This document shows positions 28,939 through 42,290 of a DNA stretch of 64,000 nt, one piece after another. Origin of the DNA: Spartinivicinus poritis (lineage in GTDB: Bacteria > Pseudomonadota > Gammaproteobacteria > Pseudomonadales > Zooshikellaceae). The notes beneath the pieces were generated by a model. That model was not told the DNA's origin. It was given only the letters and a program-made list of their open reading frames with translations, and ran no database searches. Where the stretch lies: NCBI RefSeq assembly GCF_028858535.1, contig NZ_JAPMOU010000002.1, positions 186,001 through 250,000 on the forward strand, given 5' to 3'. Made by a program: the position numbers and the translations under genes. Positions within the stretch are counted from its first letter, which is position 1. Each line of letters starts with the position of its first letter.

Positions 28939-29277
28939 ATGGAATATAATAGATGGAAAATAGCAGAACTACGGGACCTAGTAGATGAGTTAGACTCTAT
29001 TCTGCTATACGTTATTGAACAAAGAAGAAAAATCACTTATCAGATTGGTAAAATAAAAAAGAAAGTTGATATGCCAATCTTTACTGCCAACCGTGAAACT
29101 GAATTATTCAAGCGTTTATATCAACAAAGTGATCAAAAAAGAATCCCTAGAGACCTAGTAGAAAGTATTTTTAGAAACATTATCAATGACTCCTATAATA
29201 CACAGCAGGATTGTCATAAAGACAATGTTTTGATATTCAAAAGAAAAAATCCGATTAATATTGACATTACTTTTTAA
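28939..29277 (+). CDS. chorismate mutase type II (AroQ)-like small protein
   Basis: 112-residue all-helical protein. The pattern IAELRDLVDELDSILLYVIEQRRKITYQIGKIKKK, then a RE pair in ANRETELFKRL (quoted in parts), matches AroQ-fold chorismate mutases: an early Arg, the ID-D helix, ERR, GxxK and the RE. These enzymes turn chorismate to prephenate or act on isochorismate. A GTG lies at 28930, but ATG at 28939 is preferred, with AAGG at 28927-28930, eight bases before the ATG. A ~30-residue polar tail is extra to the family. It lies 117 bp before the zinc-ribbon gene at the head of the TOMM-like cluster; whether it belongs to that pathway is unknown. Confidence 0.75.
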   Translation: MEYNRWKIAELRDLVDELDSILLYVIEQRRKITYQIGKIKKKVDMPIFTANRETELFKRLYQQSDQKRIPRDLVESIFRNIINDSYNTQQDCHKDNVLIFKRKNPINIDITF

Positions 29278-29393
29278 CAACTCTCGTTAAATAATTGGAA
29301 CATTGAGAATAATGTTGTAATAAGGTGTAGTAACAAACCAAGCGAAGAAGGTTAAGCTGACAAGTAGTACTATCAACACCTAAGGACAGGGCC

Positions 29394-29612
29394 ATGAATA
29401 CTGAGCTGATCGATCAATATCTAGAAGCTGTTTGTCCAAAATGTCAGTCAGTGATTAAGAAGAAAATTTACGCAGTGATTGGTTGCCAAACCTGTGGACA
29501 CACAGAAAAAGTAGCACCTGCTACGTTAGCTAACAAGGCCAACAGCTACCGATATGCCAATAGTGCTCCCTGTACTAGCAAGCTACCAGTATATGAACAA
29601 TCAATGGCCTAA
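29394..29612 (+). CDS. small zinc-ribbon protein
   Basis: 72-residue protein with CPKC at about residue 14 and CQTC at about residue 31, a compact zinc ribbon. A Ser/Thr/Asn-rich tail follows (NKANSYRYANSAPCTSKLPV). A good ribosome site (AGGACAGGG) precedes ATG. It is not a recognised family. Its tail has the Cys/Ser/Thr residues a cyclodehydratase would modify, but the ribbon is not a known TOMM leader, so I do not call it a precursor. It may regulate or scaffold the cluster. Confidence 0.65.
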   Translation: MNTELIDQYLEAVCPKCQSVIKKKIYAVIGCQTCGHTEKVAPATLANKANSYRYANSAPCTSKLPVYEQSMA

Positions 29613-29719
29613 TTGTTTTTCACAATCAAAACCATGAATAACAGAGACTGACTGTATAGCTATCAACACAACACTAGCAGTACTAGTATTTCATACATCA
29701 AGTTTAGCTGGAGCGAGTC

Positions 29720-30673
29720 ATGGCAAGGATATTAGATCAACATTCAGGAAAGATCGTTAACCTTCAATCCCAACATATTTTTGGACGCCATCCCACTTCA
29801 ACTCATACCGTTTTGCCTAATCCTGATGCCTCACGCATTCATGCGGTGATTACATGGGATGGTGAGTTTTGGTGGCTACAGGACTCCAGTTCAAATGGCA
29901 CAATTATTAACAATACTCAAATGCAGCCTGGCGGGAAAGTCTGTTTAAAAACTAGCGATCAAATCGTTTTTGGTAAAAATACGACACATCAATGGCAACT
30001 ACTGGATACTGTATCTCCACAAAGTATGCTAAAAGCAATAAGTCCAGGCCTTTTAGATGTTATTTTAGAAGATATAGTCGCCCTGCCCTCAGAACAAAAC
30101 CCTGATGTTGTCATTTATATGACTGCTCAAGGCGCTTGGGTATGTGAAAGCCAATCAGGTACGACACTGCTTAAATCAGGTGACCGTGTAGGGGTAGTCG
30201 ATAAAGTCTGGCAGTTTATTGAGGCAGCACTTTGTGTTCAAACCCAAATGGTCGTAGAAAATCAGCCGACTTCACCAAGATTTTACTTTAATGTCAGTCA
30301 AAATGAAGAGCATGTTTTCTTGAAAATTCAGCTTGCACACGAGGAAATCGACCTAGGGCAAAGAACCCACCATTATTTATTACTCTTGTTGGCTCGCAAA
30401 CGACAGGAAGATAAAGCAGCGGGACTACAAACCAAAGAACAAGGCTGGATCGATAAAGAGCTGCTTAGTGATATGCTTAAACTCAGTGAAAACCATATCA
30501 ATATCCAAATTTACCGCTTTCGAAAGCAACTCCTCAGTGCTATATCATCGAAACCAACCTCTTTTCCTCAAGTGATAGAACGAAGAAGACGAGAAATTCG
30601 CTTTGGCTATGAAGATATTGATATCCAAGGTGGTACGATGGCATCCACTGACAATCTCACCGTTGTCGGTTAG
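29720..30673 (+). CDS. FHA-domain protein with C-terminal winged-helix-like region
   Basis: 317-residue soluble protein. Residues ~1-95 are an FHA domain: FGRHPTSTHTVLPNPDASRIHAVI, split here as FGRHP, SRIHAVI and DSSSNGTIINN, which are the phosphothreonine-binding loops. Residues ~200-300 (HHYLLLLLARKRQED, then WIDKELLSDMLKLSENHINIQIYRFRKQL) look like an OmpR-type DNA-binding fold. FHA domains read Thr phosphorylation, and the next gene is a Ser/Thr kinase, so this is a likely partner or a phospho-controlled transcription factor. Domain call is sure for FHA and moderate for the winged helix. Confidence 0.85.
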   Translation: MARILDQHSGKIVNLQSQHIFGRHPTSTHTVLPNPDASRIHAVITWDGEFWWLQDSSSNGTIINNTQMQPGGKVCLKTSDQIVFGKNTTHQWQLLDTVSPQSMLKAISPGLLDVILEDIVALPSEQNPDVVIYMTAQGAWVCESQSGTTLLKSGDRVGVVDKVWQFIEAALCVQTQMVVENQPTSPRFYFNVSQNEEHVFLKIQLAHEEIDLGQRTHHYLLLLLARKRQEDKAAGLQTKEQGWIDKELLSDMLKLSENHINIQIYRFRKQLLSAISSKPTSFPQVIERRRREIRFGYEDIDIQGGTMASTDNLTVVG

Positions 30674-30788
30674 TCGTTCAATCCAGGTTATTATGCATAC
30701 AACTATACAATTATGATCTAACCTTACATTCCATAACGTCACCTGTTGTATAGCTATCCTTAGGGAAAACTGTTAGGAAAAGCAGGCA

Positions 30789-33700
30789 ATGGAATCGCCC
30801 GAACTACTGCTAATAAATAAAGATGTCCTCTTACATTCAGATAAATACAGCTTAATTGAAAAAATAGGTGAAGGAGGTTTTGGCCAGGTATACAAAGCCA
30901 AGCAGACCAACACTGGGCAACTGGTTGCCATCAAGTTTTTAACTCTCAATCCAGCATTTGATGCTGACAAAAAAAGACGCTATATCGAACGATTTGAGCG
31001 TGAAACCCTCTTATGCAGCCGTTTACATCACCCTCATATTGTCCGGCTTTTAGATAAAGGGCGTGAAAAGAACAATCTGTTGTATGCTGTATTTGAATAT
31101 GTGGAAGGTCTATCCCTCAAAGAGCGCTTAGCCCAATCAGGCCCATTATTGCCTGCGGAAACAGGACAAATTATGGCACAGGTGTTGGATTCGCTAGCAC
31201 ACGCTCACAAACAAGGCGTTATTCACCGAGATATCAAACCAGCCAATATTATGCTCAGTCAGGTTGGAGCAACCACCCATGTTAAAATTTTAGATTTTGG
31301 TATTGGCTCTTTGGTGAATGAAGCACGGCAACTCGATTATAAAACCATTACCTTAACCCAGGAAACCCTGGGCACCCCATCCTACAGTGCACCAGAACAA
31401 TTACGCGGCGAGCCCCCTACCCCACAAACGGATATTTATGTATGGGGATTAGTTTTTTTAGAGTGCTTAACAGGTAAACCAGCAGTATCAGGCTCAAACC
31501 TGGCGTCTATTTTTCACAAGCAATTAAGTCATTCCAATATTCCAATACCACCAGCCATTGCAGGCCATCCTGTTACGGTTTTGCTGAGGCGGGTGTTGAA
31601 TAAAAAAGTGAATGAACGGGCTGCCAATGCCGCTGAACTGTATCATGAATTTAGCCAAATTAACTTAGCAACCATTGTAGGCGACTTAAGTGAACAGAAC
31701 AGCTTATCTACTCCGCCAACAACTACCCAAGCTGTCACTGCTTCATACGACAAAACATTAGTAGATGATACCCAGTTCTTTTACACAAGCCTGACGGAAG
31801 TTAAACAGCTGACGGTTTTATGTCTGACTTTACACATTAAAGCTGTTGTTGAAGTAACACCGAATATTGAAATCCTGGATACGCTGCACCGTGATCAGAA
31901 AGCACAATGTATTGATACTGCCATACGCTTTGGTGCTTATCATGTGGGTACACTTGGTGACACCCTACTGTTTTATTTTGGTTATCCTAAAGTCAGTGAA
32001 AATGATTGCCGATTATCTGCCCGTACGGCCTTAGAAATTTTCAGTAACTTAACCAAAACCAATGCCTTGTTAAAGAAAACCCAAGGGGTTGAAATACACC
32101 CTAAAATAGGTATTCATACGGGTGCTGTCACTATCTATTCAGATGCTACACCAGAAGGTGAAACCCCCAATCTCGCCATGGAGCTAGCCCGCCTTGCTAT
32201 GCCAATGCAAGTACTTTGCTCTGAGTTCACTAAAAATCAATTAGAACGTTACATTGAATTTGAACCAACCAGTGCTAAGGTGACTAGTTATCAGCAACGT
32301 AAGTTGCTTTTATACAGCTTAAAGGCTGAGCGTGCCGTTGAAGCCTTTGGCTTTTTACGAGCCAATCACTCCAATCAAAGCTTTATTGCCCGTCAGCATG
32401 AGCTAAATCAACTTATTAAGTTGTTAAATAACAATCAAATAAAAAACTCCACTGATCAGAATCATACCCAATTTGCACATGTGTGGGGTGAAGCAGGAAT
32501 TGGCAAATCCCGACTTATCTTTGAATTTCGAAGGAAAGCTACAAGCTTTAACCACTATATTGCCCAATGTTTACCAGAGCATAAAAATAATGCACTATAT
32601 CCAGTACTTAACCTATTAAAATATCAGTATGCTTTGGATTCAATATCACCTGAAAAAGCAATTCAAGTACTAAAAAGTCAAGTTAATAAGTCTGGTCAAT
32701 TAGACGAAAAACAATCTATTCCAATACTTTGTTCTTGGTTAGGCTTACCATTACCAGATTATTTATCGGATGTTGCTTTTTCACCAGATTCCCAGAAACA
32801 AATCTTATTTATCACGTTAAGCTGCCTACTTAATCAGCAAAGTAATTTAACTTCCAACCAACATAACTTGTATATTTTCGAAGATATTCACTGGGCAGAC
32901 CCAACTACCTTAGAGTTTATTGCTTATTGGCTAGCTAGTGAAGCGTTTGCTAAAAATCAGGCAATTTTTGTCAGCACCTCACGTGAAATAATACCCCAGC
33001 ACCTATCAGCACATCCCTTTACTATCGTTGAGTTATCAAAGCTAGATTATAATAATACTGCCGAGTTTATTATTAGCCGCTTTGAACATCAAAATGTTTC
33101 TGATCAAGTGTTGGATATTGTTGCCACTCGAACTGATGGGATCCCCTTATTTATCGAAGAAATGGTCAATATGCTTAAGCAAAAGCAATTAGTCCAGTAT
33201 TTAAATGGCATTATTGACTTTAGTAGTCCTGATAAAATCAATGAAGTCCCTTCCAGCTTAAGGGAGTCTCTCCAACAAAAACTGGATAGTTTAGTTTATG
33301 GCAAGGAAACCGCTCAATTAGCTGCGACCATTGGCCGTGAGTTTAATTATAAGTTGTTAGTATCAGCTTCTAGCCGCAGTGAAGAGCAAGTTCAAATAGA
33401 CCTGAATGAGTTAATAGAAGCAGACCTGGTATATTTACAACGCAAAATTGGTGATGATACTTATATCTTTAAGCATGCTTTGGTTAGGGATGCAGCTTAT
33501 GAAAGCATCCCCTCTGACAAGCTTGAAGGTTTTCATAAGTATGTAGCAGATACACTGGTTAGTCATTTCGAGGGTTTTATCAAAAACAACCCTGGTGTAG
33601 TTGCTGATCACTATCATAAAGCCAATGATTTCATTCTTGCAAGTCAATATGGCATTAAAGATGTCAGTAACTTGTCACAAAGATCTTTAGATCAAGAAGC

Positions 33701-34997
33701 TGAACAACGTAGTAAACAAGTCAATCAATGGATTGCCTTAATTAATTCTAATCAATCTGTAGAAAAAAGAATAACAAATGAGTTGCAACTCCAATTAAAC
33801 TCAGCACTTTTACCTGTTAGAACAAAGATTCAAGGTTGGGGGGCAAAAGGTATCAAACAGCTTGCTGAAGAGAATATTCAGCTAATTAATCATATCAAAG
33901 ATTCAAATAAAAGTAATTTGTCTAATAAGGAATTAAGTCAGCTAAAATATAAAGCAGAGTGGGTACTGCTGATATATCATCACTATCAAGGTAATAGAAA
34001 AATAGCCAGAAAACTAGGTGAAGAGCTTCTGAAGAAAGCTCGTCAAAAAAAAGACAGAATACAAGAGCTGATTGTTAGGACGACTTTAGGCCAGGCTTAT
34101 TTTTTTGATTGCGACTTTTCATTAGCTAAAGAAACTCTAGCATGGGTAATAGAAAACTATGATCATGAAAAAGACATCAACTTAAATATTGAATATGGAT
34201 TTGATCCCTATCACTTTTCTTCTGGAAATATCATGGCCATTGAGGCTCTTACTGGTAATATAACAAAAGCCCTACAGTATCGAGACAACTGTTTGGCACA
34301 GGCGATTAAAACCAATAATATATCAACGATCGCCACTGGTTACACCTGGGGCACTATTTATTATTTTATTATGTATGATCGAGAAGGTATGAGACAGTGG
34401 TGTGAAGAAGGTATAAAAAGTTACGGTAAAAAATTTCAAAACAACTGGATTCTTGATCACTTTTATATGAACTATGATTGGACTCAAAATCAATATGAGC
34501 GGGCAGCAAAGACAGTTAAAGATTGTATTGAATCCGGTCAAGTTGGCTTTTTACATTGGTACGATCCATTATTGGCAAGAACTTATATAGAGCATAGAAT
34601 GTTTAATGAAGCAGTTAATATACTTGAAAGTTCATTAAAAAGATCACAAGGTTTTGGCGATATTTGCATTTTATCTATTCTTTATCGCCACCTTGCAATT
34701 GCTTATTATTGTCAAGCAGGCTACCTTAATAAAAAAAGTGAGGACTGTTTTCAAAAAGCTATTAGTGAAGCACAGCAGCGCCATAGTATATGGCAAGAGT
34801 TTATGGCAGTTTATGAATATTTAAAATACTCTGAGGTAACAAGCGATAGAAGAGGTTTATATCTACGACTAAAAGAAATCATTCTATTGCTTAAAGAGAC
34901 GAATGATGAGAAACACCTAAATAACAATGCCCACTTTATTCAAGCAAACAGTTTAGTTTTAAGGAGATTTAAAGATGAAAGAGGTGCTATCCAGTGA
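30789..34997 (+). CDS. TOMM-type Ser/Thr kinase / cyclase-homology / AAA / TPR fusion
   Basis: 1402-residue cytoplasmic protein. Residues ~19-290 are a protein kinase with GEGGFGQVYKA, VAIK49, HRDIKPAN (Asp148) and DFG (Asp169), all intact. Residues ~340-510 are a class III cyclase homology domain. Its first metal Asp is missing (LTVLCLTLHI where C-D-L is usual), though GDTLLFYFGYP keeps the second, so cyclase activity is doubtful. Residues ~550-900 are an AAA/STAND ATPase with WGEAGIGKS and LYIFEDIHWADP. The rest is helical TPR-like. This order and size match the known TOMM system kinase/cyclase fusion family seen beside YcaO genes. It likely senses and regulates. Its end overlaps the next gene by 23 bases. 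Confidence 0.9.
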   Translation: MESPELLLINKDVLLHSDKYSLIEKIGEGGFGQVYKAKQTNTGQLVAIKFLTLNPAFDADKKRRYIERFERETLLCSRLHHPHIVRLLDKGREKNNLLYAVFEYVEGLSLKERLAQSGPLLPAETGQIMAQVLDSLAHAHKQGVIHRDIKPANIMLSQVGATTHVKILDFGIGSLVNEARQLDYKTITLTQETLGTPSYSAPEQLRGEPPTPQTDIYVWGLVFLECLTGKPAVSGSNLASIFHKQLSHSNIPIPPAIAGHPVTVLLRRVLNKKVNERAANAAELYHEFSQINLATIVGDLSEQNSLSTPPTTTQAVTASYDKTLVDDTQFFYTSLTEVKQLTVLCLTLHIKAVVEVTPNIEILDTLHRDQKAQCIDTAIRFGAYHVGTLGDTLLFYFGYPKVSENDCRLSARTALEIFSNLTKTNALLKKTQGVEIHPKIGIHTGAVTIYSDATPEGETPNLAMELARLAMPMQVLCSEFTKNQLERYIEFEPTSAKVTSYQQRKLLLYSLKAERAVEAFGFLRANHSNQSFIARQHELNQLIKLLNNNQIKNSTDQNHTQFAHVWGEAGIGKSRLIFEFRRKATSFNHYIAQCLPEHKNNALYPVLNLLKYQYALDSISPEKAIQVLKSQVNKSGQLDEKQSIPILCSWLGLPLPDYLSDVAFSPDSQKQILFITLSCLLNQQSNLTSNQHNLYIFEDIHWADPTTLEFIAYWLASEAFAKNQAIFVSTSREIIPQHLSAHPFTIVELSKLDYNNTAEFIISRFEHQNVSDQVLDIVATRTDGIPLFIEEMVNMLKQKQLVQYLNGIIDFSSPDKINEVPSSLRESLQQKLDSLVYGKETAQLAATIGREFNYKLLVSASSRSEEQVQIDLNELIEADLVYLQRKIGDDTYIFKHALVRDAAYESIPSDKLEGFHKYVADTLVSHFEGFIKNNPGVVADHYHKANDFILASQYGIKDVSNLSQRSLDQEAEQRSKQVNQWIALINSNQSVEKRITNELQLQLNSALLPVRTKIQGWGAKGIKQLAEENIQLINHIKDSNKSNLSNKELSQLKYKAEWVLLIYHHYQGNRKIARKLGEELLKKARQKKDRIQELIVRTTLGQAYFFDCDFSLAKETLAWVIENYDHEKDINLNIEYGFDPYHFSSGNIMAIEALTGNITKALQYRDNCLAQAIKTNNISTIATGYTWGTIYYFIMYDREGMRQWCEEGIKSYGKKFQNNWILDHFYMNYDWTQNQYERAAKTVKDCIESGQVGFLHWYDPLLARTYIEHRMFNEAVNILESSLKRSQGFGDICILSILYRHLAIAYYCQAGYLNKKSEDCFQKAISEAQQRHSIWQEFMAVYEYLKYSEVTSDRRGLYLRLKEIILLLKETNDEKHLNNNAHFIQANSLVLRRFKDERGAIQ

Positions 34998-35832
34998 TTT
35001 TTTTACACATAAAAAAACATTCTCATACAATGGCTTTATAGATATTTCTAAAATCTCTCGACAATGGTTTTCATTAATGGTAAAGCTGAATGAGTCTCGC
35101 AGATTAGCAAACTTTTTCTCAGAAGACAGCTTAATTGATGATCCAAATGACGCAAAAAATAAAGTTTGGCAGATAAAATCAACCGAATATACAAGGTATT
35201 TTTTAACAACAGGGATTGCTATTTTTGATATATATAACCAGAAACCAAATATACTAGATAAGTATAAATACCAAGAAACTATGCCAGTAGATCGGGTAAT
35301 TCTAGTAAAAGATAAGGATTTAGAATCTAAATTAGATAAACTAAAACAGTACCAGTTTAAAGATGGGCTTTATATTGAAAATGTAGAAAAGTGGCCTGGG
35401 TGTGGAATGGCTCTACCTGAAAAAGTACGTATTAGACTTAATCCAGATATTGTGTGGCCAATTTTTGAAGCTCAAATTAAGCAAAAATCATCTGACAAGC
35501 TTTATAAAATAAAAATTGGCAACTCAACAAATCAAATTAACTGGAGCTATGAAGAAATTGATATAGTTACAAAATTAACCCAAAAAGATGAGATTTTTAT
35601 TTCAGGGCAAACAAAAGATTGTATAGACAATAATTGTTTGGAAAGATTTGATGAAGTTTCTTATCAACTTCAACAAGGAGCAACAAAAGTAAAGGTAAAA
35701 TTCAAAGCAAATGAATACGAGTTTCAAAAAGATACTGCTTTATTGGTATTACCCTATACATGCCCTGCATTTGATATTCTAACAGAAATTAATTTCGATG
35801 GGACTAATGATATAGTTTTAACAACTACCTAG
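34975..35832 (+). CDS. unrecognised 285-residue protein in TOMM-like operon
   Basis: Not a family I recognise. It is soluble, Lys/Asp-rich and AT-rich in codon use, with no TM segment or signal. The first half is mixed alpha/beta, with WPGCGMALPEKVRIRLNPD near residue 140. The second half is strand-rich and ends LLVLPYTCPAFDILTEINF and a Thr tail. A strong AAGGAG inside the end of the kinase gene and the 23-base overlap show real, coupled translation. A G/C hairpin follows before the YcaO gene. By position it could be a modification partner, an immunity factor or an unusual substrate; none is shown by sequence. Confidence 0.75.
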   Translation: MKEVLSSDFFTHKKTFSYNGFIDISKISRQWFSLMVKLNESRRLANFFSEDSLIDDPNDAKNKVWQIKSTEYTRYFLTTGIAIFDIYNQKPNILDKYKYQETMPVDRVILVKDKDLESKLDKLKQYQFKDGLYIENVEKWPGCGMALPEKVRIRLNPDIVWPIFEAQIKQKSSDKLYKIKIGNSTNQINWSYEEIDIVTKLTQKDEIFISGQTKDCIDNNCLERFDEVSYQLQQGATKVKVKFKANEYEFQKDTALLVLPYTCPAFDILTEINFDGTNDIVLTTT

Positions 35833-35842
35833 GGAACAAGTG

Positions 35843-35856
35843 GGGGCTGCTGCCCC
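35843..35856 (+). promoter_or_regulatory. intercistronic hairpin before the YcaO gene
   Basis: GGGGC-TGCT-GCCCC stands out in AT-rich surroundings, 10 bp after the previous stop and 4 bp before the AGAGGA ribosome site. There is no T-run, so it may be a processing or stability hairpin setting the YcaO dose rather than a terminator. Role inferred. Confidence 0.4.
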
Positions 35857-35868
35857 TTAAAGAGGATT

Positions 35869-38073
35869 ATGCCAAATTTATATAAAATCAACACTAGCTA
35901 CCTCTATGCTAAACTAACATCAAACAAGTTAATTGCTTTATCAGAGTCAGATAGTTTTCTACTAGAGAGAGAAATTTTCTGTGACATACTTACTGAATTT
36001 GCTAACGTAAGCTTTAATATCGAAGAAATTGTAAGTCGATTGTCAAATATACACCCACCCGCTCTCATACTACGTGCATTTAATAAACTTGTATCTTCAA
36101 GCCTAGTTATATCCTTAAATAGGGAGCATAATATTCCTATTCATACTGATATAACTTTTTTAGTGAATCATACACCAACCAGCCTCAAAGATAAGGTGAA
36201 ACTAATTGAGCTTGAGAAAAACTGCACTATCCACCCTTTACTGATACAACATGGTTTTAAGCTTTCTAATAATACTGATTTTTCGATTGTAGTAGTTAAT
36301 GATTACCTTGACCCAAAGCTGGTTCAAATCAACCAAACCCAATTGAAAAATCAATCGCCTTGGTTGTTATTTAAACCCTTTGGAAACCAGGTCAGGATAG
36401 GTCCATTATTTGTACCAGGTAATAATACCCTATGCTGGCAATGCCTTGCTTATCGACTAAAAATGCACCAACCTTTTGCTTACTTAGTTGATAATGCAAG
36501 TAAGGTTATAAAACGAGCTAAACCTTTAGCAACAGAAGAGTCATTAACTATAGCTGTCAGACAACTTAAAAAAGTACTAGCAGAAATAGACTTAAAAGAT
36601 GGTAGTCATTTATCATCAATATTGTGCCTTAACCTGGTAGAAGGAAAACTAGAGAGTCATAATGCTTATAAACGTCCTCAATGCCCAGAATGTGGAATGC
36701 CTTATAAGATTGACTATAGCAATCTACAAATAAATAATGAAAGCACAATTAGCGACTGTTCCGGAGGTTATCGCAGCACTTCTCCAGAGTTGACATACAA
36801 CAAGTATCAATATTTAATTGACCCAATCACAGGTATTATTCCAGCCCTTAGAAATTATAGCAATGCAAATACTGCTCCTCTTTTTAACTATTCATCAGGA
36901 CGCAACTTAGCCTTACAAAGTAAAAACTTATTTTGGTTAAATAATCATCTTCGATCCTGTAGTGGTGGAAAAGGAAAAAGTGCTCAACAAGCCAAAGCTG
37001 GTGCATTATGCGAAGCTATAGAGCGTTATTCAATGATGTACCATGGACAACAGCCTTGTAAGGTTGCCAGTTTGGTTGAACTAGGCAATAGCGCTATACA
37101 TCCCAATAGCTGTATGAATTTTAGTGAACAGCAGTTTGCAAACAGAGAATCGATTAACCAACAGTCCTCATCATTTTACTCATTAGTTCCTATAAAATTT
37201 GATTCTCATCAGCAGCTTGATTGGGCTTCAGTTTACTCTCTAATCAACAAAGAAATAAAATACTTACCCTCTGCCTACTGTTATGCTCAATATCCACATG
37301 AAGATGAATCAGCATTGATCGCCTATCCAGATTCTAACGGCTGTGCTGCCGGAAATACCTATGCTGAGGCTATCTTACAAGGCTCACTAGAACTCATCGA
37401 ACGTGATGCTGCTGCAATCTGGTGGTATAATAAAATACTCAGACCAGAAGTTGACTTACATAATATAGGCAATGATTACATTGCAACTCTTCTTGATTTT
37501 TATCGCTCAAAAGAGCGGAGCTTATTTGTTCTCGATATTACCACTGACTTAGGTATACCAGCTTTTGTTGCTGTTTCATACAACCTATCCAATAACAAAG
37601 AAATCATATATGGCTTTGGTTGTCATTTAAACACTTTAATTGCAGTCGAGCGCAGTATTATTGAGCTAAACCAACTACTTCCTATACTGCTGGATCAAAA
37701 GCTTGATCAATTGGACCACCAACTAAAAGACTGGTTAACCTTACAAAGTATTGATGATCACCCTTATTTACTCCCTAGTAATTCTAATAAAATAAATCCT
37801 CTCAACCACTACCCTGATGATCACCCTACAACTATTTCATCAGCTGTTAACAAAATAACTGACCACTTTGCAAAAGCTGAGATTGATTTATTCATGTTAG
37901 ATTTAACTCAACCTGATATTGGTATGCCGGTTGTGAAAACGATTGCACCAGGCTTAAGGCATTTTTGGCGAAGAACTGGACCAGGCAGGTTATATACTGT
38001 CCCAGTTAAAATGGGGTGGCTTGATAGTGCTTACAATGAAGATGAGCTAAACCCATATAGTATTGTCATTTAG
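35869..38073 (+). CDS. E1-like/YcaO cyclodehydratase fusion (TOMM biosynthesis)
   Basis: 734-residue enzyme. Residues ~1-270 are the ThiF/E1-like docking part (VVVNDYLDPKLVQIN, WLLFKPFGNQVRIGPLF, CWQCLAYRLKM), with a zinc-type CPECGM at about 274. Residues ~330-734 are YcaO: SGGKGKSAQQAKAGALCEAI plus ERYS, and the second helix NTYAEAILQGSLELIERDA, which hold ATP and magnesium. The family uses ATP to cyclise Cys/Ser/Thr of a precursor peptide to azolines. The C-terminus ends NPYSIVI without the PxPxP tail common in this class. No SagB-like oxidase is adjacent. Strong ribosome site at 35861. It follows the kinase and the unknown gene in one operon. Confidence 0.92.
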   Translation: MPNLYKINTSYLYAKLTSNKLIALSESDSFLLEREIFCDILTEFANVSFNIEEIVSRLSNIHPPALILRAFNKLVSSSLVISLNREHNIPIHTDITFLVNHTPTSLKDKVKLIELEKNCTIHPLLIQHGFKLSNNTDFSIVVVNDYLDPKLVQINQTQLKNQSPWLLFKPFGNQVRIGPLFVPGNNTLCWQCLAYRLKMHQPFAYLVDNASKVIKRAKPLATEESLTIAVRQLKKVLAEIDLKDGSHLSSILCLNLVEGKLESHNAYKRPQCPECGMPYKIDYSNLQINNESTISDCSGGYRSTSPELTYNKYQYLIDPITGIIPALRNYSNANTAPLFNYSSGRNLALQSKNLFWLNNHLRSCSGGKGKSAQQAKAGALCEAIERYSMMYHGQQPCKVASLVELGNSAIHPNSCMNFSEQQFANRESINQQSSSFYSLVPIKFDSHQQLDWASVYSLINKEIKYLPSAYCYAQYPHEDESALIAYPDSNGCAAGNTYAEAILQGSLELIERDAAAIWWYNKILRPEVDLHNIGNDYIATLLDFYRSKERSLFVLDITTDLGIPAFVAVSYNLSNNKEIIYGFGCHLNTLIAVERSIIELNQLLPILLDQKLDQLDHQLKDWLTLQSIDDHPYLLPSNSNKINPLNHYPDDHPTTISSAVNKITDHFAKAEIDLFMLDLTQPDIGMPVVKTIAPGLRHFWRRTGPGRLYTVPVKMGWLDSAYNEDELNPYSIVI

Positions 38074-38221
38074 CTTTATTTTATTAAGGAAAATATTTGG
38101 TCATGCCCCACTTCACTTTCTTCTGGGGCTATAATGAACTGTCCCTAGCTATTCCTATACAACATGGCATACTAGCTCACCTAAACAACCGTTGATTCTA
38201 GCAAAAGACACTATAAGCATA

Positions 38222-39214: not shown

Positions 39215-40348
39215 TTAATCGCTATTCTGTCGTCTCAACCAGAAATCTGATTGAAATTGAGTCACTTTTTTATACTCCGCCTGGTGTATATCAATAAAAC
39301 ACAGAAAATTTTCCTGCATTAATTGCTGATAAGCCGCTAGCTGACCTGTTTTTCCCTTGCTTTCAGCACTGATTGCACAGGCACCATAATAGCCACTGCC
39401 AATGCCTGATAGAATACCAAACGATGATAATGGGTCATAACTACAAGCGGCATCTCCGACTGCAAGCCAGCCTTCACCTGCACATTGATCAAGTGCCGAC
39501 GAATACGCTGCTGTCCGCTGCAGGGTATGATTGCTATCTATTACACAATGGCTTAAACGCTGACATAATTCTGGGTTTTGCTTAGCCAGTGCCAGCATTT
39601 TCTCTGTGCTTTTTGGTAAGGGTAAATCTCCATCAGTGAAATAACACAGTACTGAACATTTATCTGAAACAGGTGCCGTATACCACCAGCCCTGCGAGGT
39701 ATTTTCTATTAATACAGTATGGGGTGGTAAAGTGGATTTATTCGTATGCTTTATTCGCATAATACTGGCGACTAATCCATCCAGTCTTCGCGTTTTCCTA
39801 TCTAAACGTTTTGCAATAGCACGTGAGCGTCCACTGGCATCAACCAATATTTTAGGTAATATTTCCTGTTCACAACCATTTATTTCACAATATGCCTTCC
39901 AGTAGCCCAGCCTTTGATATTCATCACTGGTTGTACATAAAGCAGTTAATTTTGTATTCCAATAAAACTGAACACCCTGCTGCTCAGCAGCCGACACCAA
40001 CATATGATCAAATCGTGCTCGATTAACTATCCAGCCTCCACCAGAGGGGTTAGCTAAAAAATCTCGATCATAACCACCTTTCGCATCCCATGAGACACGA
40101 TAGCCAACCATTTTAAGATGGTCATCACTATGAAAACGTTGGGCCAAACCCAGCTTTTTTAAGCATGCCAAACCTCTAGGTGGTAAACACTCGCCTATTT
40201 TTGCTTTGACGCTTTCATCCTTAGCTCGATCAATCACAATGACTTGATAGCCTTGTAAAGAAAGCACCAAGGCCGTACAGCAACCCGCAGGACCTGCACC
40301 CACCACTAATACATCGGGTGCAGTATGACTAAACCGGTTAAATCTCAT
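39215..40348 (-). CDS. LodB-like FAD-dependent monooxygenase-type flavoprotein
   Basis: 377-residue flavoprotein. The Rossmann motif VLVVGAGPAGCCTALVLSLQG lies at the N-terminus (read VGAGPAG), a middle motif in VDASGRSRAI, and a second FAD motif in AVGDAACSYDPLSSFGI. Tryptophan halogenase/hydroxylase-like family. Beside a LodA gene such proteins (LodB, GoxB) are required to form the cysteine tryptophylquinone cofactor. ATG at 40348 is preferred; a GTG at 40363 is possible. It overlaps the end of the LodA-like gene, so the two are coupled. The partner role rests on context. Confidence 0.88.
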   Translation of the reverse strand: MRFNRFSHTAPDVLVVGAGPAGCCTALVLSLQGYQVIVIDRAKDESVKAKIGECLPPRGLACLKKLGLAQRFHSDDHLKMVGYRVSWDAKGGYDRDFLANPSGGGWIVNRARFDHMLVSAAEQQGVQFYWNTKLTALCTTSDEYQRLGYWKAYCEINGCEQEILPKILVDASGRSRAIAKRLDRKTRRLDGLVASIMRIKHTNKSTLPPHTVLIENTSQGWWYTAPVSDKCSVLCYFTDGDLPLPKSTEKMLALAKQNPELCQRLSHCVIDSNHTLQRTAAYSSALDQCAGEGWLAVGDAACSYDPLSSFGILSGIGSGYYGACAISAESKGKTGQLAAYQQLMQENFLCFIDIHQAEYKKVTQFQSDFWLRRQNSD

Positions 40349-42290
40349 CACGACGGTAAACACGACGCCTGGGAGGATTTTGATCGGATTTATCTGCTAA
40401 CTGTTTATCAATACCGCATTGTTCGTTAATAATATCTTCCGCTTTGGGCTCAACCCCTGCCAAGTTCTCTATCATTAATAACTGCTTATAGCTAGGATCA
40501 TCTTCAGTAAATCGCTTAGCCACTTCAGACTCTACCCACAACACATTGGGTATACCTGCATCCTGGTCAGTATTTTCTACTTGGCGACGACGAATGATGC
40601 CTATTTCACTCCAATGTTGCACCATCGCATTAATTTGAGGCTGATAGCCTCCCTGGAAAAAACGCAGCCAATCTTGACGGTGATCCATATGCTTAATTCG
40701 CTGCCCGATAGGTAATTGCTTATCTTCTATACGCTCAAGTGACCTGGTACTCAGTACCTGGTTAGGCACACGAGCTGACCAGAAACTGGGTGTGGGTAAA
40801 TAGGTCGCCGTATCATAACCTGATCGACAACTGGCTTCATCTGTTTGCCAGGGAATGCCCATAAAGCGCGTTAAGGTACCTGGCCCGCTTTCATTAAACA
40901 TGTCTTTTAAAGCATGTTTCGGTCGTAAAATAGGTCCATAATCATCTCTGACTGTTTCACCTTCTTTCATGATATTCAGGCGAAATGGGTCATGTTTATT
41001 TGATAGATCCCACATTGAAAGACGTCGTAAAAACCAGGTTAATTCAATTCCGGGATGAAATGGTCCACCTAGACACTCTAGTAAATTAGTGGCTGTTAAT
41101 GCAGCGCCTTGTTTTTCTATTGGAATATCCTGTAGTTTTTCTGGATCATCCTGTTTATTACCGACCTTAAAATTACCTTTAGCCCATTCCTTTAATTGCT
41201 GATACTGAGTTTTTGTTACAGAAAGATTTACATCAGGCGCACTATCAAAGTCACCAAAGGCGTCACCATAAAATGGCGGTTGCTTGGCATCTTGTCGTTT
41301 ATCTTTATTTGGGTCACGGAATTGTTTAAAAATATACTCCCGCAATGGACCTTGTTCCCGATCAGGGCTAATTAACTTGTCTAACAATTGAGGGTTATTA
41401 AAATCACCCGGTGAATTCTGGCCAAACATAAAGTAAATACCCTCATTAACCGCTTGATTTTCTACCAGGCGCTGAAATATCGGATAAATATCCCGCCAAA
41501 ATTCGACCTGTTTCGGTAGTTCCAATACATTTTCACGATAAAATAAATCAGCTACCACATCGTACATGGTTACTACGCCCCGTAGCCCAGGGCCAAAATT
41601 CGGCGGTGTCACTGCGACCATAGCGGGTTTTGCTTCAAATTCTTTACCCTTGATTGTAACAGTAGCCCGCACTGGTCCATCACTCACATCATCGTGCCAA
41701 CCATCATTATTAGCAAAAGTCGTTGCTTCAGCTCCATCATAGCTGGCTGACTCCCCTCGCCCTCCCAACACTAATAAACGACCTTTCTTGTCAGTACGTA
41801 GCTCACCTAAATAGACTTTCTTACCAAAGAACTTACCATTATCAAAACGGTATTCAGCTTGATTACCTTTGTTACAACCTTTTATATGCCGTTGCCCAGG
41901 TGCAATTAACAAATCCTGCCTTCTTTCATCCCAATTAGTAATAGAAGCATTACGCAACTGACTTTCTAAGGCAATATCACCCAGGTCCATGGCATTGTTA
42001 AACTGATAACCAATTGCTTTACGGTTGGCCAACTCCACTCGCCAGGCAATTTGGGTATCCCCCTCATTTACAATCTCACGAACCACTTTTCCTTTAGCAT
42101 TTAAACCATAAACCCGAAACCGAGCCACTTGTCGCTTAACTCGCCCTTTGTCGTCTTTAAATGATTTATTTTTATTGATAGTTTCGCCTGGCGCTTCAGG
42201 ACCGATGAAGTATTCATCCGGTGAATTCCCTACCCGCGCAATGCCAATAGCGGGATAAACTGCATACGAACAAACTTCCTTGTCTGACAT
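40338..42290 (-). CDS. LodA-like CTQ-dependent amino-acid oxidase
   Basis: 650-residue quinoprotein oxidase. The N-terminus YAVYPAIGIARVGNSPDEYF is the LodA/GoxA family signature. Candidate cofactor residues are Cys406 in ECLGGPFHPG and Trp481 in GIPWQTDEASC; SFWSARVPNQVL follows and is also conserved in the family. Known members are L-lysine 6-oxidase (LodA, antibacterial through hydrogen peroxide) and glycine oxidase (GoxA). The substrate cannot be told from sequence. No signal peptide; known members are exported without one. First gene of the pair, with a 250-bp promoter gap upstream. Confidence 0.9.
   Translation of the reverse strand: MSDKEVCSYAVYPAIGIARVGNSPDEYFIGPEAPGETINKNKSFKDDKGRVKRQVARFRVYGLNAKGKVVREIVNEGDTQIAWRVELANRKAIGYQFNNAMDLGDIALESQLRNASITNWDERRQDLLIAPGQRHIKGCNKGNQAEYRFDNGKFFGKKVYLGELRTDKKGRLLVLGGRGESASYDGAEATTFANNDGWHDDVSDGPVRATVTIKGKEFEAKPAMVAVTPPNFGPGLRGVVTMYDVVADLFYRENVLELPKQVEFWRDIYPIFQRLVENQAVNEGIYFMFGQNSPGDFNNPQLLDKLISPDREQGPLREYIFKQFRDPNKDKRQDAKQPPFYGDAFGDFDSAPDVNLSVTKTQYQQLKEWAKGNFKVGNKQDDPEKLQDIPIEKQGAALTATNLLECLGGPFHPGIELTWFLRRLSMWDLSNKHDPFRLNIMKEGETVRDDYGPILRPKHALKDMFNESGPGTLTRFMGIPWQTDEASCRSGYDTATYLPTPSFWSARVPNQVLSTRSLERIEDKQLPIGQRIKHMDHRQDWLRFFQGGYQPQINAMVQHWSEIGIIRRRQVENTDQDAGIPNVLWVESEVAKRFTEDDPSYKQLLMIENLAGVEPKAEDIINEQCGIDKQLADKSDQNPPRRRVYRRDEI

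Follow-up and report, generated by a model that had tools for sequence, protein, structure and literature searches.

A kinase/cyclase-type TOMM locus of Spartinivicinus poritis with a full-size conserved protein as candidate YcaO substrate

Among the thiazole/oxazole-modified microcins (TOMMs), NHLP-Burk precursors encoded beside a large Ser/Thr kinase are a published arrangement, as set out in the excerpts of Haft, Basu and Mitchell (2010, PMC2887384) at hand. Our literature search returned no paper on the kinase/cyclase family TIGR03903 and none joining YcaO with forkhead-associated (FHA), and none of the papers found gives the product or purpose of kinase/cyclase-type TOMM loci. We analyzed a window of 64,000 nt from Spartinivicinus poritis, by which we mean the whole stretch of DNA under study, in which a block of genes at 28.9–38.1 kb on the plus strand specifies an FHA-domain protein, a TOMM kinase/cyclase fusion and a fused E1-like/YcaO cyclodehydratase. 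A first-pass annotation of this DNA had recognized these three as one plus-strand block, and the coordinates agree with it, as do the matches to TIGR03903, TIGR03604, TIGR03882 and Pfam. It had also suggested that a YcaO enzyme tied to phospho-signalling and acting on an unusual substrate would be new. The enzyme-kinase system itself is already known, being the arrangement in the excerpts just cited; what would be new is the kind of substrate. We consider that the substrate of this YcaO is probably the 285-residue protein encoded next to it, X285, one of the candidates of the annotation, for which gene context, co-inheritance with YcaO, a deletion scar and a shared C-terminal motif now give good support.

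All genes of the block lie on the plus strand where the annotation had placed them. The kinase/cyclase gene (30789–34997) specifies a protein of 1402 residues which scores 906 bits against TIGR03903 (cut-off 705.75) and is composed of a Ser/Thr kinase, a cyclase-homology domain, a STAND-type ATPase and a TPR-like tail; HRD, DFG and Walker A motifs were found in it. The gene for X285 (34975–35832) starts inside the kinase gene, the two sharing 23 nt, and is followed after 36 nt by the YcaO gene (35869–38073, 734 residues). Upstream lies the FHA gene (29720–30673, 317 residues; Pfam FHA 6e-15). A Pfam scan of the block gave FHA, Pkinase, AAA_16, Guanylate_cyc and YcaO above the cut-off and TPR_12 below it. 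The cyclase stretch, KQLTVLCLTLHIKAVV, lacks the Asp by which class III cyclases bind metal, and the cyclase domain is therefore probably inactive.

The YcaO protein matches TIGR03604 at 258.1 bits (cut-off 219.25; YcaO domain 36967–37959) and TIGR03882 at 91.9 bits (cut-off 36.9; region 36358–36840). Its nearest solved relatives are LynD (488.8 bits, PDB 4v1t), TruD (455.0 bits, 4bs9) and MusD (427.7 bits, 7u58), the matches covering both the N-terminal and the YcaO parts, with a full alignment to LynD. The ExxE/ExxER residues E382, E385, R386, E508, E511 and R512 are, with others, invariant among 12 YcaO proteins; some of these presumably bind ATP, and judging from the invariant residues the enzyme appears to be catalytically intact.

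X285 has no match in Pfam or NCBIfam at E≤0.1, and for its relatives Pfam yielded nothing beyond some sub-threshold noise; a profile search of the PDB gave none at E≤10, and plasmid searches with X285, as with the zinc-ribbon protein discussed below, were empty. Searches over 1802 genome slots, among which genomes may recur, defined a rare family, with 9 X genes spread over 8 loci and 7 genomes, the window and its sister species of the same genus (genome G034, locus L042) included. A relative with 36% identity occurs in Pseudoalteromonas caenipelagi (L033), and profile searches added two genes in L056 and one in L062, both from a Cytophagales metagenome-assembled genome (G560), and one each in L073 (another Pseudoalteromonas), L074 (genome G1101) and L075 (G1151). 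Three weaker matches were not accepted: one in G411 (E 0.005, one stop inside), one in G876 (E 0.047, four stops) and one in G1219 (E 0.002), where the open reading frames (ORFs) of the region (L076) include neither kinase/cyclase nor YcaO. The X proteins range from 257 to 563 residues and have a conserved C-terminal region; W/L-x-G-x-G/E at 140–144, P148, P162 and P-Y...D-x-L at 260–269 are conserved in all of them. Between L074 and L075 the ratio of non-synonymous to synonymous rates (dN/dS) is 0.047 for the 278-residue X (11 non-synonymous and 49 synonymous changes) and 0.053–0.080 for the enzymes, which argues that X is a real, constrained protein.

A kinase/cyclase gene is present in all eight X loci. 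X adjoins it in the window, L042, L073 and L062, and stands one or two genes off in L033, L056, L074 and L075; the order in L073 is exactly kinase-X-YcaO. A YcaO gene lies beside X in six of the eight (window, L042, L033 and L073–L075). The other two, L056 and L062, have radical SAM enzymes above the TIGR03975 cut-off and no YcaO, while L074 and L075 have both kinds (the TIGR03975 scan covered L056 and one of the L062 enzymes; those of L074 and L075 share 43% identity with one from L056). A 127-residue protein in L056 gave a TIGR03882 match below cut-off. The position of X is thus constant, and the kind of modifying enzyme around it is not. As an observation in its own right, L056 and L062 combine a kinase/cyclase, very long X proteins (456–563 residues), a KamA-like radical SAM protein and a number of radical SAM C-methyltransferases of the TIGR03975 family, and look like an undescribed class resembling ribosomally synthesized and post-translationally modified peptides (RiPPs).

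For comparison, the TIGR03903 cut-off is exceeded in 6 of 194 genomes of the order, that of S. poritis included; the set was widened by nine further loci found through YcaO similarity, and gene content was compared by tblastn across 21 sources. In eleven loci (L033, L035–L041, L044–L046) the precursor slot is filled by a long protein. That of L046, at 101.5 bits, alone exceeds the TIGR03795 cut-off; L036 (31.9), L040 (17.2) and L035 (17.0) fall below it, and L033, L044 and L045 give no match. The proteins of L037 and L038 resemble that of L036, and those of L039 (Pseudoalteromonas amylolytica) and L041 (a further Pseudoalteromonas) that of L033, so that for some loci our label "TIGR03795-type" is based upon position and C-terminus. 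In the stretches compared, 10 of the 11 have an amidohydrolase and none has SagB; neither gene was found in the seven X loci without a TIGR03795-type precursor (window, L042, L056, L062, L073–L075). The annotation had remarked upon the absence of a SagB-type oxidase, and indeed tblastn with two SagB queries (E≤1e-3) detected none in the window. This is not unusual, since none of the TIGR03795-type precursor loci has one.

The phylogenies bear on the relationship between X and YcaO. In the YcaO tree, from which an OsmC/YcaO protein of L073 had been removed beforehand, the six X-linked enzymes are split from 12 YcaOs of TIGR03795-type loci by a branch with 100/100 support (these six, like the nine genes of the family, include the near-copies L042 and L075, without which four X lineages are YcaO-linked). 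In a tree of 18 kinases the same labels require four changes, all forced by well-supported branches; here L033, in which both kinds of cassette are present, was labelled X, the L062 kinase, interrupted by runs of N, was represented by its longer piece, and that of L035 is truncated at a contig end. Since the YcaO tree splits cleanly and the kinase tree needs four changes, it is YcaO, not the kinase, whose descent follows the substrate. Four related Pseudoalteromonas kinases accompany both cassettes in L033, the precursor cassette in L039 and L041, and the X cassette in L073.

A scar in L039 (6760–6960) tells a similar story. There, 76 nt show 78% identity to the start of the X gene (its first 25 codons, E 3e-12), and 39 nt further on two collinear pieces of 23 nt (E 0.06 and 0.004) match the final 77 nt of the X-linked YcaO gene with 87% identity. 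As the scar brings the beginning of X up against the last codons of YcaO, the two genes were apparently lost together in a single deletion. Substrate and YcaO therefore behave, as far as these sequences indicate, as a swappable cassette on a common kinase/FHA chassis.

The same part of the block appears to have moved recently within the genus. Sliding identity to G034 is about 97–100% across approximately 32.0–38.2 kb (32000–38200), a tract that takes in X285, YcaO and the 3' half of the gene for the kinase, against a background of about 87–93%. Synonymous divergence (dS) from G034 is 0.018 for X285 and 0.026 for YcaO, versus 0.43–0.45 for the flanking PEP-CTERM, GGDEF and FHA genes. On the grounds of this jump in identity and the low dS we interpret the tract as the product of recombination, by which the substrate-enzyme part was recently exchanged between two species of Spartinivicinus.

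A further link between X285 and recognized precursors is found near the C-terminus. The motif P[FYW]T[CST], which was defined after inspecting the sequences, lies within the last 40 residues of 8 of the 11 TIGR03795-type precursors and of all three X proteins from the window, L042 and L033 (two of them independent), and in none of the 183 other ORFs of at least 150 residues in the compared loci. The stricter PFT[CST] matches no X, and the looser P[FY][TI][CST], needed for the X proteins of L073–L075, also matches one of the 183. In the precursors the site is a few residues from the end; in X285 it is 22 residues before it (P260-Y261-T262-C263, codons 35752–35763). At column 263 of the X alignment the six genes beside YcaO carry Cys (four) or Ser (two), and the two of L056 and the one of L062 all carry Pro. 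Among 131 filled columns, 41 and 263 alone separate the seven lineages by presence of YcaO; all 35 four-versus-three splits of these lineages yield four such columns in total, and only column 263 is stable across three alignments. Residue 143 is Cys in the window, L042, L033 and L073 and Val or Ile in the other five.

Several observations weigh against X285 as the substrate. RiPP precursors are usually short, with a conserved leader and a variable, usually hypervariable, core; X has no recognized leader and its C-terminal region is conserved. Residue 262 is Ile in the X proteins of L073, L074 and L075, which places them outside P[FYW]T[CST]. The C/S-versus-P split at column 263 may be a single event, because all three Pro genes come from G560. 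That genome also holds, on another contig, a YcaO (L035, 9992–12241) which falls in the X-linked clade (97/98) with no X adjoining, its three X genes being elsewhere, and this enzyme could act in trans on X proteins without Cys or Ser at 263. The conservation of X285 between S. poritis (G000) and G034, 98.6% identity, was rejected as a sign of selection, as it belongs to the recombination tract. An AlphaFold2 model of X285 with L033 as the sole alignment partner was discarded (mean pLDDT 33, pTM 0.23). Comparison of X with five precursor groups by hhalign gave probabilities of ≤0.3%, as with three control groups; among the precursor groups themselves only a–e (96.6%) and d–e (62.7%) detected one another, and b and c detected none. 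Since the precursor groups mostly fail to find each other, this is weak evidence that X and the precursors are unrelated. Finally, a kinase/cyclase with an FHA gene is by itself no proof of a TOMM: L043 (8222–13254, minus strand) has the kinase with the top score of the order search, 919 bits against TIGR03903, together with an FHA gene and no YcaO within 20 kb.

A separate feature of G560 is that the kinase/cyclase locus L035 (3829–12241) encodes three YcaO proteins and an asparagine-synthetase-like protein.

On a rival reading X285 is never modified and serves the kinase/cyclase as an accessory (a sensor, an anchor or an effector under its control), with YcaO acting on an unrecognized peptide encoded elsewhere. 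X accompanies the kinase/cyclase more faithfully than it does YcaO (eight of eight loci versus six), and its constrained sequence, conserved along the C-terminus, is unlike a typical RiPP core; no leader motif was recognized. We nonetheless think this unlikely, as it is the YcaO tree and not the kinase tree that tracks X, 10 of the 18 kinases compared occur without X, and in L039 X and YcaO were seemingly lost together.

A standard short TOMM or NHLP/Nif11 peptide with its gene at another place in the genome is a highly improbable substrate, although remote precursors are known for other TOMMs (excerpts of PMC2887384 and PMC4603692) and the assembly, 100% complete by the tool's figure, is in 160 contigs. 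A search of the genome with two precursor models, others such as TIGR03798 not being searched, gave no match to TIGR03795 at E≤10 and only noise for TIGR03793 (two matches of 16.4 and 11.4 bits, cut-off 50.9, X285 not among them), in keeping with the view of the annotation that the locus has no recognizable precursor. The genome has one further YcaO, on contig C44 (L047, 8023–14460; TIGR03604 298 bits), which has SagC-like and SagB-like partners of its own and belongs to an ordinary, separate TOMM-like cluster; L047 also encodes a 1013-residue protein without an NCBIfam match.

The 72-residue zinc-ribbon protein (29394–29612, +), for which the annotation had considered a Cys/Ser/Thr tail as the core, is hardly credible as the substrate: it does lie inside the block, and in the comparison with G034 the first 51 residues keep 75% identity ahead of a variable tail, as a leader and core would, but it is present in only 2 of the 21 sources (window and L042), its four Cys make a plain zinc ribbon (with Pfam and NCBIfam zinc-ribbon matches below cut-off only), the G034 tail is 8 residues shorter and has lost its only Cys (dN/dS 0.37, dS 0.78, the tail not conserved), and L073 and L033 have the same type of YcaO and no such gene.

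Returning to X285 as the probable substrate, one might picture the following. A signal would reach the STAND/TPR part of the kinase, which would phosphorylate a partner, and the FHA protein would read the phosphorylated partner. The LynD/TruD-type YcaO would bind X285 and, using ATP, cyclize a residue, or a few of them, to azolines, each ring lowering the mass by 18 Da. The residue concerned would most likely be Cys263 of L-P-Y-T-C (codon 35761–35763), with Cys143 of the GCGM block (codon 35401–35403) as second candidate. LynD and TruD form azolines without an oxidase, and an azoline product would require none here. The kinase/cyclase and FHA proteins would be a regulatory chassis accepting different substrate-plus-enzyme cassettes: a TIGR03795-type precursor with its own YcaO, usually with an amidohydrolase; X with its own YcaO; or X with radical SAM enzymes.

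Proline stands at 263 only in X relatives without an adjoining YcaO, and a thiazoline at this position would resemble proline. We may therefore speculate, tentatively, that YcaO sets a single structural, proline-like azoline at 263 in a full-size conserved protein under kinase/FHA control, that is, a regulated protein modification and not the synthesis of a peptide natural product; this narrower proposal is a doubtful one.

Should X285 be the substrate, the kinase/FHA part would serve generally as a chassis for substrate-enzyme cassettes unrelated to one another, and this YcaO would have been paired with a large conserved protein that offers a single testable site and not with a variable peptide core. 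The target of kinase/cyclase loci would then be open to direct test with two genes.

With regard to the remaining genes, tblastn matches to the FHA protein were found in 8 of the 20 other loci (L038, L040, L042–L046, L074, L075; nine if both L074 and L075 are counted), and its C-terminal part is conserved in other kinase/cyclase loci. A profile of this part gave only weak matches in the PDB (interleukin-1 beta, E 0.11; three SaeR entries, E 0.30–0.58, no shared Pfam family); it is possibly DNA-binding. At the head of the block a chorismate-mutase-like protein (PF01817; 28930–29277, +) was seen only in the two loci of the same genus. Beyond the block, 39215–42290 on the minus strand specifies a GoxA-like CTQ quinoprotein (469 bits, cut-off 750) and its GoxB/LodB-like flavoprotein partner; in G034 (L042) different genes follow the EamA gene here.

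How then does the locus compare with described systems? With the NHLP-Burk (TIGR03795) kinase/cyclase TOMMs, as they appear in the excerpts of PMC2887384, it shares the TIGR03903 fusion, the fused TIGR03882/YcaO protein and a candidate substrate encoded between them. With the TIGR03795-type loci compared here it shares an FHA protein (in several relatives), the lack of SagB and a long substrate with P-aromatic-T-[CST] near the C-terminus. Unlike them, it has neither a TIGR03795 protein nor an amidohydrolase in the window, its candidate substrate shows no sequence relationship to theirs, the motif is 22 residues before the C-terminus and not at it, and its YcaO belongs to another clade. As the TIGR03795 feature is lacking we do not assign the locus to the NHLP-Burk TOMMs; we class it as a variant within the kinase/cyclase type of TOMM. 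The cyanobactin heterocyclases LynD, TruD and MusD are the closest solved relatives of its YcaO; unlike in cyanobactin clusters, no cyanobactin precursor, PatA/PatG proteases or prenyltransferase were noted in the block, no model search being made for them. The window block also differs from the RiPP radical SAM C-methyltransferase clusters (TIGR03975) in having no radical SAM gene, and it is tied to them through the X relatives of L056, L062, L074 and L075, which adjoin such enzymes.

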